Translations under genes and position numbers: made by a program
DNA from: Cyanobacterium sp. HL-69
Lineage (GTDB): Bacteria > Cyanobacteriota > Cyanobacteriia > Cyanobacteriales > Cyanobacteriaceae
Length of the DNA: 64,000 bases
Assembly: GCA_002813895.1 (NCBI GenBank)
Contig: CP024912.1
Coordinates: 1,178,001 to 1,242,000 of the forward strand
Direction: 5' to 3'
Shown: one piece after another, positions 55,774-61,241 of the stretch
Numbering within the stretch: the stretch's first letter is position 1
Layout: every line of letters begins with the position of its first letter
The notes under the pieces: model-generated
Databases searched by the model: none
What the model was told of the DNA's origin: nothing
What the model saw: only the letters and a program-made list of their open reading frames with translations

Positions 55774-56719
55774 GTCACTTTACTTAAGTATGAACCAATC
55801 AAGGGTAAAATAATGGATGAAGTAATTATTTTTATATTTAAGTATAATGCCCCATGATATAGAATTAAGACAAAAAGTAATTGACTATGTAGAAAATAGA
55901 GGTAACGTAACAAAAGCATCGAGAATATTTGGAATATCAAGAGCATCAATATATAGATGGTTGAATAGAAAAGATTTAAGACCAACAGTGGTCAAAACTC
56001 GTCAAAGAAAATTAGATAAATCAGCACTATATGAAGATGTAGTGAAAAATCCAGATGATAAATTAATAGATAGAGCGAAAAAATTTGGAGTAACAATGTC
56101 AGCAATATCTCATGCATTCAAAAAAATGAACATAACAAGAAAAAAAAACAGTTACGTTATAGAGAAAGAAATAGAAAACAAAGAATAGAATACTTACAAA
56201 AATTAAGAGAATTAGTCAAAAAATACGGAAGTAAGAGTATGGTATTTATTGATGAGTCAGGATTTGAGGAAATAAGTACTTGCATTTATGGGTGGTCAAA
56301 AAAAGGAAAAAAAATTTATGATGAGAAACAAGGAAAACGAGGAAAAAGAGAAAATTTAGTAGCAGGAAGAAGAAAGAAAGAAAAAGATTTTATTGCTCCA
56401 ATGATCTTTACAGGAAGTTTAAATGCAGAAAGTTTTGAATCATGGCTAAAAATGTATTTATTACCATCACTAAAACAATTTTCAATACTAATAATGGATA
56501 ATGCACCAATCCACCGAAAAAATATGATAAAAGAATTAGTAGAAGAAGCAGGTCATCTAGTAATGTTTTTACCAACTTATTCACCAGATTTAAATGATAT
56601 TGAACACGATTTTAGTGCTTTAAAAAGAGCAAAAATGTATAGCGATAGTACAATAACTTTATATGAAATAATTTATAATTATTGTACTAGCTAAATGTCT
56701 CAGTCTTATTTTGATTGAC
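55774..56719 (+). mobile_element. IS630/Tc1-mariner family insertion sequence
   Basis: It is bounded by TA dinucleotides at 55772-55773 and 56720-56721, the expected duplicated target. The ends begin GTCACTTTACTTAAG and, on the other strand, GTCAATCAAAATAAG, an imperfect inverted repeat. The 946-bp element carries one transposase read in two overlapping frames. Size and TA target fit the IS630 family. Confidence 0.8.
55847..56694 (+). CDS. IS630-family transposase, two frames joined by A9 slippage
   Basis: Frame 1 (55847-56188) holds the helix-turn-helix part: MPHDIELRQKVIDYVENRGN, VTKASRIFGISRASIYRWL. Frame 2 (open through 56694) holds the DDE part: SMVFIDESGFEE, LIMDNAPIHRKN, and YSPDLNDIEHDFSALKR. 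The needed join is a -1 shift at the run of nine A's (56140-56148), after which KQLRYRERNRKQRIEYLQKL restores the usual IS630 sequence. This could be programmed frameshifting, known in the family, or a plain frameshift mutation. All three catalytic acids are present. Confidence 0.78.
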
Positions 56720-57061: not shown

Positions 57062-59914
57062 TTACAAGATTTCCACAATACCTTTTTGTCCGTCAAGGCG
57101 CACTCGTTGATTGTTGCGTAAAATTCTGGAGGCTTGGGGAATGTTCATCACTGCAGGAATACCATATTCTCTAGCTATAATTGCCCCGTGGGATAGTTGT
57201 CCTCCAATTTCGATGATGATGCCTCCTGCTTGGGCAAGAATTAATGACCAACTGGCATCGATATAAGGGACTATGATGATAGTTTCTTTGTCAATGTTGA
57301 TATTTTGGGTTAAGGTACGAACAATTTTGATTTTTCCTTCTATGATGCCCATACTGCCTGGAATGCCTTGGAGTTTATTTTGGGAGGTTTTGGGAGATAT
57401 TTTACTATCAATATTAATTTTGGGACTTTTGCCATATATCAGGTAAGGAATTTTTTTAATTTCTTTGTATTCTTGGCATTTTTGTTGACGTTTATCGATG
57501 ATACTGATAGTTTGTTGGTGATCAGTTTTTTGGTTTACTAATTGCTTGATTTCGGAGATTTTAAGGAAGAAAATATCTTTTTCATCTAATAAAAATTGAT
57601 CTTGGTATAGTTTTTCTCCTAAAGCGGTAAAGGTAAATCTAAGATGAGAAAATAGCTTATTATTTATATCTACTATTTCTCCTTTTAATTCATATCTTTT
57701 TTGTACTATTTTTTGTTGTATATTTTGTATTTTTAACTTATTATTAGTTATAGTTTTTATGGAGTTATCAGCGACAAATTTAGTAAACATTATCTTCATA
57801 ATACGATGATTTTCTGACCATCGAGGTACAGATATATCTGTTGTAATTTCGCTCAAATAACCATATTTTTCTAACCATTCATTAAGTCTTTTTATGACTG
57901 ATTCGCCGTCGCTTGATTCGGAAAGGGTAGCAAAAAAGGAGGGGTAATTTTGGGGTTCTAATTCTTGTAATTGAATACCAGAGAAAAGATTGCGGGTATC
58001 GATCGCAATTTGTTTTAGTTCTTCAATGGCTCTTATTTCTGTTATGTTTTGATTGTCTAAATCTTGCGCATTGACCTTGAAAAGTGTTTGACGAATAATG
58101 TAGCTTAAATAAGCTAACGTTTTAAAATAAGTAGTAGTTTTTAAACCCTCTAAAATATCGTCTATTCTTTGTAATAATTCTTGATTACTTAATTCTTGAG
58201 GGTTTATTTCTTCTAGTTCGTCTAATAGGGGATTAAAAGTGCGATCGCTCTTAACTTGAAAATCTTTAAATAAAGTCCACTCTTTGACTAACAATCGCCA
58301 TAATGTAGGGATGTTTTTGAGGATAGAAGAAAGAGAAGGTTTAGCAAATTTTTCGCCATCGGTTAAATACTGTAAACTTTCGGGAGGTAATCCTATTAAA
58401 AGGAAAATTTCCCCTAATAAAGTTGCATTAAAATAACCATAACTATAGTGTAAAATTGCTATTTTACTAAACTCTAAATCCTTCCTTTTATCTTGTAAAA
58501 TAATAGAAACAATATCCCTAGCAACAGCAGAGATTAAAATATTATGGACTCCCCAAGACAAATGAGGTAGAGGTTTGGGGAAAATCTCCTGAGCAATTTT
58601 CCTTGTCCAAAGGGGATAGAGAGTACTTATGGGACGATTTTGTAAAATCCATAGGGTTTGCCCATCGTAACTCCATTCTATATCTTGAGGGATATTCTTA
58701 TGGGTTCTTTCAATTTCTCTAGCAATTTTTGCCACGGAAAACAATACCGATGGCGGTATATTCCCGCGCCCTTTTAGCACATCATCAGCAAGATAAACTT
58801 GATATTTTTCAGGAGAAACTTGCCCTGATACCACTTTCTTCGTATCTCCTGCTACCCCTTCAATGCAGATACAATCATCAAGTTGATTGATAGGATTGCG
58901 ACTAAAAGCAACCCCCGAAAACTCTCCCTTGATTTGCTTTTGCACAATTACCATCAAAGATTTTTCTTTGGTACCTTTATTTTGGCGATAATTAAGGGCG
59001 ATCGCGCTGTGATAAGATGATAAACAATCGATGATTCTATGCTTGAGGGTAGCCACATCAGTAATATTGAGATAACTCTTATAGATTCCTGCCGCCGACA
59101 CCGTCAAAGAATCCTTATCCAAAACCGAAGGACGCACCACCAAAGGATTTTGTATAGAAGGGTTAGCAAAATCACAAAAAGTATCCAAATCATCCCCCGC
59201 CCTAATTACCCAACCATCAGGCACACTATAACCCCATTGCTTCAGCAAAGAAAGATTTGCCGCCTTATACCCCACCTTTTCAGGATTTAGCTTCTGAGAA
59301 AGAGAAGTTACCCCACTATCGCCCCGAAAAAAAGAAAATACTTGACTAGATTTAAACTCCCCCTCATCAGAAATCTGATCAAAAACCCACAATAATAACG
59401 CAGCTAAGCCAATGGTGACAAAAATATATTCTGGGGAATTAATATTTTGAGCCGATAACACCACCACCATTAAACCCAAAAAACCAACTTGCCCCCCTTT
59501 ACGGGTACGAAAAATCGTAAAACTAATACCCCCTAACAACAAAATCAACAATCCTGCTAGGGGATTATGGGCGATGATACCCCAAGTAACATTAGTTAAA
59601 CCAGCGCCCTTACCTACCCAATAACGCCCCATGACAAGGGCAATTAAAGCCATTATCTCCCATGATGAGCCAAGGGGAAAAAATGCCCTAGTCATTAAAA
59701 CCACCGCAACACCTTTTCCTGCCTCCGATAAAAACGCCAAAATTCCTGCCGCCCTACCACCGTGATAAAAAGCCGCCGACACGGAAATATTACCATTCCC
59801 TAATTTTTTTAACTCTTTTCCTGATACGGCATAGGTAAACCAATCCACCAGAGGAATAGCCCCGATAATGGGGGATACCACAAAAACAATAATTGCTCCC
59901 CAAATTTCTGTCAT
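57062..59914 (-). CDS. PlsY-like / PEP-synthase-like fusion protein
   Basis: A 950-residue three-part protein. Residues ~1-185 are membrane helices resembling the acyltransferase PlsY (IIGAIPLVDWFTY, GNGNISVSAAFYHGGRAAGILAFLSEAGKG). Residues ~200-440 resemble the PEP synthase/PPDK ATP-binding domain (GYKAANLSLLKQWGYSVPDGW, LVVRPSVLDKDSLTVSAAGIY, GEFSGVAFSRNP, DIEWSYDGQTLWILQNRP). A ~400-residue linker is unassigned. The end is a PEP-utiliser mobile domain with the phospho-His motif GGQLSHGAIIAREYGIPAV. The combination suggests membrane-linked phosphotransfer, but the reaction is unknown. Confidence 0.85.
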   Translation of the reverse strand: MTEIWGAIIVFVVSPIIGAIPLVDWFTYAVSGKELKKLGNGNISVSAAFYHGGRAAGILAFLSEAGKGVAVVLMTRAFFPLGSSWEIMALIALVMGRYWVGKGAGLTNVTWGIIAHNPLAGLLILLLGGISFTIFRTRKGGQVGFLGLMVVVLSAQNINSPEYIFVTIGLAALLLWVFDQISDEGEFKSSQVFSFFRGDSGVTSLSQKLNPEKVGYKAANLSLLKQWGYSVPDGWVIRAGDDLDTFCDFANPSIQNPLVVRPSVLDKDSLTVSAAGIYKSYLNITDVATLKHRIIDCLSSYHSAIALNYRQNKGTKEKSLMVIVQKQIKGEFSGVAFSRNPINQLDDCICIEGVAGDTKKVVSGQVSPEKYQVYLADDVLKGRGNIPPSVLFSVAKIAREIERTHKNIPQDIEWSYDGQTLWILQNRPISTLYPLWTRKIAQEIFPKPLPHLSWGVHNILISAVARDIVSIILQDKRKDLEFSKIAILHYSYGYFNATLLGEIFLLIGLPPESLQYLTDGEKFAKPSLSSILKNIPTLWRLLVKEWTLFKDFQVKSDRTFNPLLDELEEINPQELSNQELLQRIDDILEGLKTTTYFKTLAYLSYIIRQTLFKVNAQDLDNQNITEIRAIEELKQIAIDTRNLFSGIQLQELEPQNYPSFFATLSESSDGESVIKRLNEWLEKYGYLSEITTDISVPRWSENHRIMKIMFTKFVADNSIKTITNNKLKIQNIQQKIVQKRYELKGEIVDINNKLFSHLRFTFTALGEKLYQDQFLLDEKDIFFLKISEIKQLVNQKTDHQQTISIIDKRQQKCQEYKEIKKIPYLIYGKSPKINIDSKISPKTSQNKLQGIPGSMGIIEGKIKIVRTLTQNINIDKETIIIVPYIDASWSLILAQAGGIIIEIGGQLSHGAIIAREYGIPAVMNIPQASRILRNNQRVRLDGQKGIVEIL

Positions 59915-59963: not shown

Positions 59964-61241
59964 CTATTCCCCATTATCCATTCCTCTCTTATTCAGAAAT
60001 TCTGTCACATAATCAAATTGATTATATTCTGCTAAACTAGCGGCAGTATAACCGTTATGGTTGCGATGATTGGTATTAATTCCCTCTACCTCTAATAACA
60101 GTTTAACCCCTTCTAAATGTCCTCGGTGCGCTGACCACATCAAAGCCGTGCCTCCCCCTTTATCCTCAAGGTTTACATCAGCACCAAAGTGCAATAAACA
60201 GCGAATCATATCGAGATTATTTTGGTCACATACTTTCATTAAAACGGTTTTTCCATCGGCTAAACGCACATCAGGATTTGCCCCTGCTTGGAGTAAATAA
60301 TAGGCTATTTCTTGCCAATTGTTGATGATGGCGAGGGTTAGGGGATAATCATGGCCATTGACATAGTTGGGATTTGCTCCATTTTTAAGTAATTCGGCAA
60401 CAATTTCACTATGCCCCTGTAAACAGGCGATGAGTAAAGGACTATCTTTTTCAGCGTTGATGGCGTTAACGTCTGCCCCTTTTTTGATGAGGGCTTCGAC
60501 AATTTGAAAGTGTCCTTCTAAACAGGCTAAATGGAGCGCTGTTTCTTGATAACTGTCTTTTAGGTTTACTTGGGCTTCAGCATTGAGTAATACTCTAACA
60601 ATTTCTATGTTTCCTTGGGCGCAGGCATTCATGAGGGGGGTAAAGCCGTCTTTATTTCCTCTGTTTACATCCACGGACTGTTTTAAGAGGGTTTTAACTA
60701 CGTCTAGTTTATGGTAGTCGATGGCGAGATTTAATGCTCCTTCGTCTTGGTATAAGTCGGCGCCATGGCTGACTAATAGCTCGATGATGGGGCTATGATT
60801 TTTTTTGATGGCTACTTGTAAGGGGGTTTCTCCATCTATGTCTTGGGAGTTTACCCTTGCTCCATTTTTTAATAATAGTTCGGCTATATCTCTATGGCCT
60901 AAGTAACAGGCTATCATTAATGGTGGGGTGCGATCGTCGTTACTTAGGTTTACATCAGCACCCGATGTGATTAATAATTCACAAATAGGTAAATAGTTTT
61001 TGGCACAGGCAAACATCAGTGCTGTCATTTTATGGGGATGGTTTTGATAATTGACATTAGCCCCTTTATCAATCAGTAAATGTGCGATCGCACCATTGCC
61101 CCCTTGTACCGCATAAATCAAAGGAGTATTATGATTGACATCAATATTGTTAACAATATTATTATCCTGAGCTAGAATTATTTCAACCATAGGCAAATTT
61201 TGCTGTCTTACCGCTTGATGGATGTTAGAAAGATTGTTCAT
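59964..61241 (-). CDS. Ankyrin-repeat protein
   Basis: A 425-residue protein made almost wholly of about 12 ankyrin repeats, each near 33 residues, with TPLxxAxxxGxxxIxxLLLxxGAxVN signatures such as GFTPLMNACAQGNIEIVRVLLNAEAQVNLKD. No signal peptide or catalytic domain. A protein-binding scaffold; partners unknown. The repeats show full-length consensus conservation with no obvious break. Confidence 0.93.
   Translation of the reverse strand: MNNLSNIHQAVRQQNLPMVEIILAQDNNIVNNIDVNHNTPLIYAVQGGNGAIAHLLIDKGANVNYQNHPHKMTALMFACAKNYLPICELLITSGADVNLSNDDRTPPLMIACYLGHRDIAELLLKNGARVNSQDIDGETPLQVAIKKNHSPIIELLVSHGADLYQDEGALNLAIDYHKLDVVKTLLKQSVDVNRGNKDGFTPLMNACAQGNIEIVRVLLNAEAQVNLKDSYQETALHLACLEGHFQIVEALIKKGADVNAINAEKDSPLLIACLQGHSEIVAELLKNGANPNYVNGHDYPLTLAIINNWQEIAYYLLQAGANPDVRLADGKTVLMKVCDQNNLDMIRCLLHFGADVNLEDKGGGTALMWSAHRGHLEGVKLLLEVEGINTNHRNHNGYTAASLAEYNQFDYVTEFLNKRGMDNGE

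Follow-up and report, generated by a model that had tools for sequence, protein, structure and literature searches.

A PlsY-family membrane domain fused to an RPH-type dikinase in cyanobacteria: loss of the glycerol-3-phosphate clamp and a possible membrane-tethered kinase

The dikinases of the rifampin phosphotransferase (RPH) type and the acyltransferase PlsY are the closest described relatives of the protein reported here. RPH of Listeria (5fbs, 5hv1) needs K22, R117 and T136 for resistance, and its E297A variant kept activity (PMC4844700). The two-component phenolic dikinases HpeHI, CreHI and PpsAB work by the same principle, as small-molecule dikinases that use a swivel His (PMC12167813). 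ATP-grasp and swivel domains also occur in PEP synthase and PPDK. In PlsY of Aquifex (aaPlsY, 5xj5), S35, R45, K104 and N180 contact the phosphate of G3P, S142 and H177 contact its 2-OH, and the acyl-phosphate is bound through the backbone at residues 104-107 together with the T41 and H92 side chains; T41S reportedly loses about half of the activity (PMC5700162).

One open reading frame in the window, by which we mean the whole stretch of 64,000 nucleotides analysed from Cyanobacterium sp. HL-69, brings elements of these systems together in a single chain. Its features are as follows.

57062..59914, minus strand: dikinase-PlsY fusion gene of 950 aa, ATG start, no internal stop (PlsY-like membrane domain, ATP-grasp, RPH-type substrate domain, His swivel)
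59384..59875, minus strand: PlsY-like membrane domain, residues 14-177 (PF02660)
59756..59800, minus strand: motif 1, residues 39-53, GNGNISVSAAFYHGG (family GTGNxSVSAAFYHGG), replacing PlsY GSGNxGATNxxR
59579..59629, minus strand: motif 2 region, residues 96-112 (GRY....GAG.TNV.WG), replacing PlsY GH...F.GGK
58610..59314, minus strand: ATP-grasp domain, residues 201-435, with K217, R261, E413, Q425 and R427 invariant
57389..58609, minus strand: predicted RPH-type substrate (R) domain, residues 436-842, aligning with 5fbs from residue 560 onward
58514..58615, minus strand: signature of the R domain, residues 434-467, with the family form P.WTRKIAAEVIPG.IRPLTWSINRPLTCGVWG; the window copy has it in eroded form
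57065..57388, minus strand: phosphohistidine swivel domain, residues 843-950 (PF00391 and match of the family profile)
57188..57190, minus strand: codon of H909, the predicted phospho-acceptor (His825 of Listeria RPH), aligned to 5fbs and invariant in 36/36 orthologues

The initial annotation of this DNA had seen a membrane acyltransferase, a PPDK-type ATP-binding domain and a phospho-His domain in one 950-residue protein, and this three-part composition is real, since each Pfam domain lies above its cut-off: G3P_acyltransf (PF02660) over residues 14-177 with 54.7 bits against 24.1, PPDK_N (PF01326) over residues 253-377 and a second stretch with 114.9 against 27, and PEP-utilizers (PF00391) over residues 875-945 with 70.9 against 23.1. 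The suggested likeness to RPH also holds up well. The C-terminal 750 residues show the RPH layout of ATP-grasp domain, substrate domain and C-terminal His swivel, and K217, R261, E413 and H909, the equivalents of RPH K22, R117, E297 and H825, are invariant in all 36 aligned orthologues, with position 280, corresponding to T136, being Ser or Thr in the family. The middle of the protein was described earlier as long and unassigned, which is correct for residues ~436-560 only, where there is no PDB match and the strong family signature lies; residues 560-950 align with Listeria RPH (5fbs, i-E 3.8e-27), and the family profile, over its positions 650-965, matches RPH at 7.9e-42 (RPH chain overall 3.2e-79). 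Judged by these alignments, the middle from about residue 560 is an RPH-type substrate domain. Within it, R740 and K744 are conserved in 35/36 orthologues at the spacing of RPH R666 and K670, an equivalence by spacing only, HMMER having aligned the region differently, and Glu667 of RPH has no clear equivalent among the aligned orthologues, the Glu not being conserved.

The protein is nevertheless distinct from each of these dikinases. Unlike RPH it has an extra N-terminal PlsY-like membrane domain and its own R-domain signature, and it scores only 206.9 bits with NCBIfam RIF_Ptrans_rph against a cut-off of 999. Unlike HpeHI, CreHI and PpsAB, which consist of two proteins without a membrane domain, it is one chain that has one. 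It differs from PEP synthase and PPDK in that its swivel is C-terminal, no PEP/pyruvate barrel is matched in the 950 residues, and the NCBIfam PEP synthase models score far below their cut-offs (at best 230.9 against 945; TIGR01418, 137 against 740). We suggest that the family represents a further member type of the RPH-type dikinases, with a membrane domain added.

The N-terminal domain is homologous to PlsY, as the initial annotation had it, since in addition to the PF02660 match a profile-profile comparison with 29 cyanobacterial PlsY sequences gave an E value of 4e-7 at 18% identity, and the order of the loops is shared with aaPlsY and with the PlsY of the same genome (L001). The acyl-phosphate:G3P acyltransferase activity ascribed to it, which was to be given up if catalytic residues were lost in all orthologues, is not borne out: residues of the G3P clamp are missing from all aligned orthologues. 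The position of aaPlsY R45 is Tyr in 36/36, that of S35 is Thr in 34/36 and Asn in the window copy, T41 is replaced by Ser in 34/36, N42 by Ala in 35/36 and H92 by Arg in 35/36. The PlsY loop GGKGVA reads GAGxTN in the family, a Gly being aligned to K104, and the HRxNI motif carrying H177 and N180 is absent from all 36. A stretch at about the distance of HRxNI reads IY..IPDDL with an invariant D183, an equivalence that is by spacing only, and R45 is likewise lost in the deepest relatives with a retained motif 1. It is thus on residues (R45, S35, the HRxNI motif) that an active GPAT was ruled out. That the protein is nonetheless a true GPAT joined to a regulatory PEP-synthase-like module, for which the PF02660 score above cut-off would speak, we consider highly improbable, given these losses and the fact that a canonical PlsY is encoded separately in the same genomes (176 bits with PF02660 for L001), so that G3P acylation is covered elsewhere. 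To name these proteins glycerol-3-phosphate acyltransferase from PF02660 alone would be wrong.

The residues that replaced the PlsY active site are themselves conserved, with Y50, T107, W111 and D183 invariant and R97 nearly so. In the 36-sequence alignment the PlsY-like domain equals the ATP-grasp domain in conservation (58.6% against 56.7% mean pairwise identity), and it therefore appears, as far as conservation can tell, to be under selection for something other than G3P acylation. This bears on a simpler explanation, namely that the domain merely anchors a dikinase whose substrate is an ordinary small molecule in solution, as with RPH and the phenol kinases. RPH-type dikinases indeed act on soluble aromatics and antibiotics without any membrane part (PMC4844700, PMC12167813), but 25 of the 180 positions of the domain are invariant, several of them at the former PlsY active-site loops, which is unexpected for a mere anchor and makes this explanation rather unlikely in our opinion. 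Structure prediction was of low confidence both for the N-terminus, where the seven-helix PlsY fold would be expected (AlphaFold2, pLDDT 39.8 from a shallow alignment of 2 sequences), and for the full length (pLDDT 44.9, also from a shallow alignment).

Another way to account for the conserved pocket is a bifunctional enzyme, in which the dikinase product, an acyl-phosphate or phosphorylated acceptor, would be used by a PlsY-like acyltransferase with a new acceptor. The acyl-phosphate side of the site is partly kept or conservatively changed (T41 to Ser, H92 to Arg, GAGxTN for GGKGVA), and, apart from fragmented copies, a scan of 40 cyanobacteria showed no such remodelled domain without a dikinase. 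However, the acceptor site is gone, no residue clearly corresponds to K104, and to our knowledge no dikinase of the RPH family phosphorylates a carboxylate, so that we regard a bifunctional enzyme as very doubtful.

The explanation we favor, at a probability of roughly one half, is that the protein is not a lipid acyltransferase but a dikinase tethered to the membrane, which acts on a small molecule or lipid and carries a repurposed PlsY fold. ATP would be bound by the ATP-grasp domain, and His909 of the swivel would accept the beta-phosphate with release of AMP and Pi, after which the swivel domain would shift to the R domain and phosphorylate the acceptor bound there. The N-terminal PlsY-family domain would anchor the enzyme in the membrane, and its remodelled pocket, having lost the G3P site, would most likely bind or present an amphipathic or lipid acceptor, or the product. 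The first steps of this cycle are the best supported, since the residues involved are conserved and belong to a characterised family, and we infer the acceptor, its lipid-like nature and the role of the membrane pocket. A coupling of phosphorylation to lipid headgroup or acyl chemistry, as proposed initially, may exist. A particular form of it, in which the swivel dikinase makes an activated phosphate (an acyl-phosphate or phospholipid precursor) for the repurposed PlsY site in a lipid-modifying or lipid-salvage reaction peculiar to no described pathway of cyanobacteria, is in our estimate quite unlikely. If the favored explanation is true, the RPH-type dikinases, which are known to act on antibiotics and aromatics in soluble form, have members in photosynthetic bacteria that operate at the membrane, and the PlsY fold has been put to a use other than phospholipid synthesis.

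The fusion is kept across cyanobacteria. All three Pfam families match in 36/36 aligned orthologues, an architecture in common that rules out a chance or assembly fusion, and at a threshold of E<=1e-30 85 of 291 genomes sampled from the phylum contain a member of the family. Most close relatives of the window species have it as well. The genome is cyanobacterial also by its gene content (ThiC, an NDH-1 subunit) and by its relatives. When 40 cyanobacterial genomes were scanned with PF02660, the matches comprised a canonical PlsY of ~210-270 aa and, for most genomes, the fused protein as well, and there was no third kind of match; in G024 the fused copy is broken into several frames and the assembly is incomplete. 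The fusion was not seen in ~440 genomes of two other phyla, which are samples and do not prove that it is absent there. Of these, the 299 genomes from the phylum of L038 gave only short frames with the N-terminal query, nearly all PlsY-sized and one of 416 aa, and the 144 from the phylum of L037 gave RPH-like frames only, none over residues 1-170. No viral relatives were found in IMG/VR by the two patterns tried, and in phage and plasmid collections all matches were RPH/PEPS-like and covered less than 80% of the query. In the open-access literature searched, no title or abstract pointed to a paper on this protein. This is a conserved cyanobacterial family, so far seen only in cyanobacteria and apparently uncharacterised.

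Several members depart from the common architecture. The orthologue L133 is in two frames, split at the PlsY/ATP-grasp boundary at about 1740-1800; we rejected a natural fission into two genes, as the split has the look of one frameshift where the two domains meet rather than of a clean fission. A second copy in G201 (L130, 601 aa) has the PlsY-like, ATP-grasp and swivel domains without the substrate domain. The His motif, invariant in the 36 aligned orthologues, is changed from SHG to SQG in three divergent copies outside that set (L120, L121 and L122, from G042, G122 and G238), in which the ATP-grasp Lys is changed as well; because His to Gln abolishes the activity of the related HpeH (PMC12167813), these copies look like pseudo-enzymes. 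Outside the cyanobacteria, the marine gammaproteobacterial MAGs G325, G326 and G327 (L038-L040) carry many long RPH/PEPS-like dikinase genes per genome, which is a lineage expansion.

The copy in the window is a poor representative of its family, belonging to a fast-evolving species pair with an eroded substrate-domain signature. Among positions that are the same in 93% or more of the other sequences, it departs at 42; the copy of its sister species (G004) does so at 73, and the median is 6. The changes fall largely within the R domain and above all in the signature, which here reads WTRKIAQEIFPKPLPHLSWGVHNILISAVAR. In the tree the pair has a stem of 0.14 followed by branches of 0.14 and 0.34, longer than the 0.066 of the sister G003, and R-domain dN/dS is ~0.38 for the pair compared to ~0.17 for L011 and L012. 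These values, along with the loss of the catalytic His in the divergent relatives G042, G122 and G238, could mean that the gene of the window species is a relaxed or decaying copy, or one changing its specificity, with a function that differs from that of the family. We find such a difference in function unlikely, as the open reading frame is intact in both species, overall dN/dS is well under 1, and the window copy retains all ATP-grasp and His residues. Since frame and catalytic residues are intact, the window copy seems to be relaxed or to be changing its specificity and not to be a dead gene; the specificity in this species may have been altered or relaxed through its fast-evolving substrate domain.

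No conserved neighbour was found outside the genus across 20 loci, and the neighbourhood points to no pathway. An ankyrin-repeat gene lies ~50 bp upstream on the same strand (59964-61241, minus strand), an arrangement seen only here and in G004 among these loci, and it is possibly co-transcribed with the fusion gene. On the other side, at 55847-56694 on the plus strand, an IS630-type transposase in two open reading frames, its DDE part matched, adjoins thiC.
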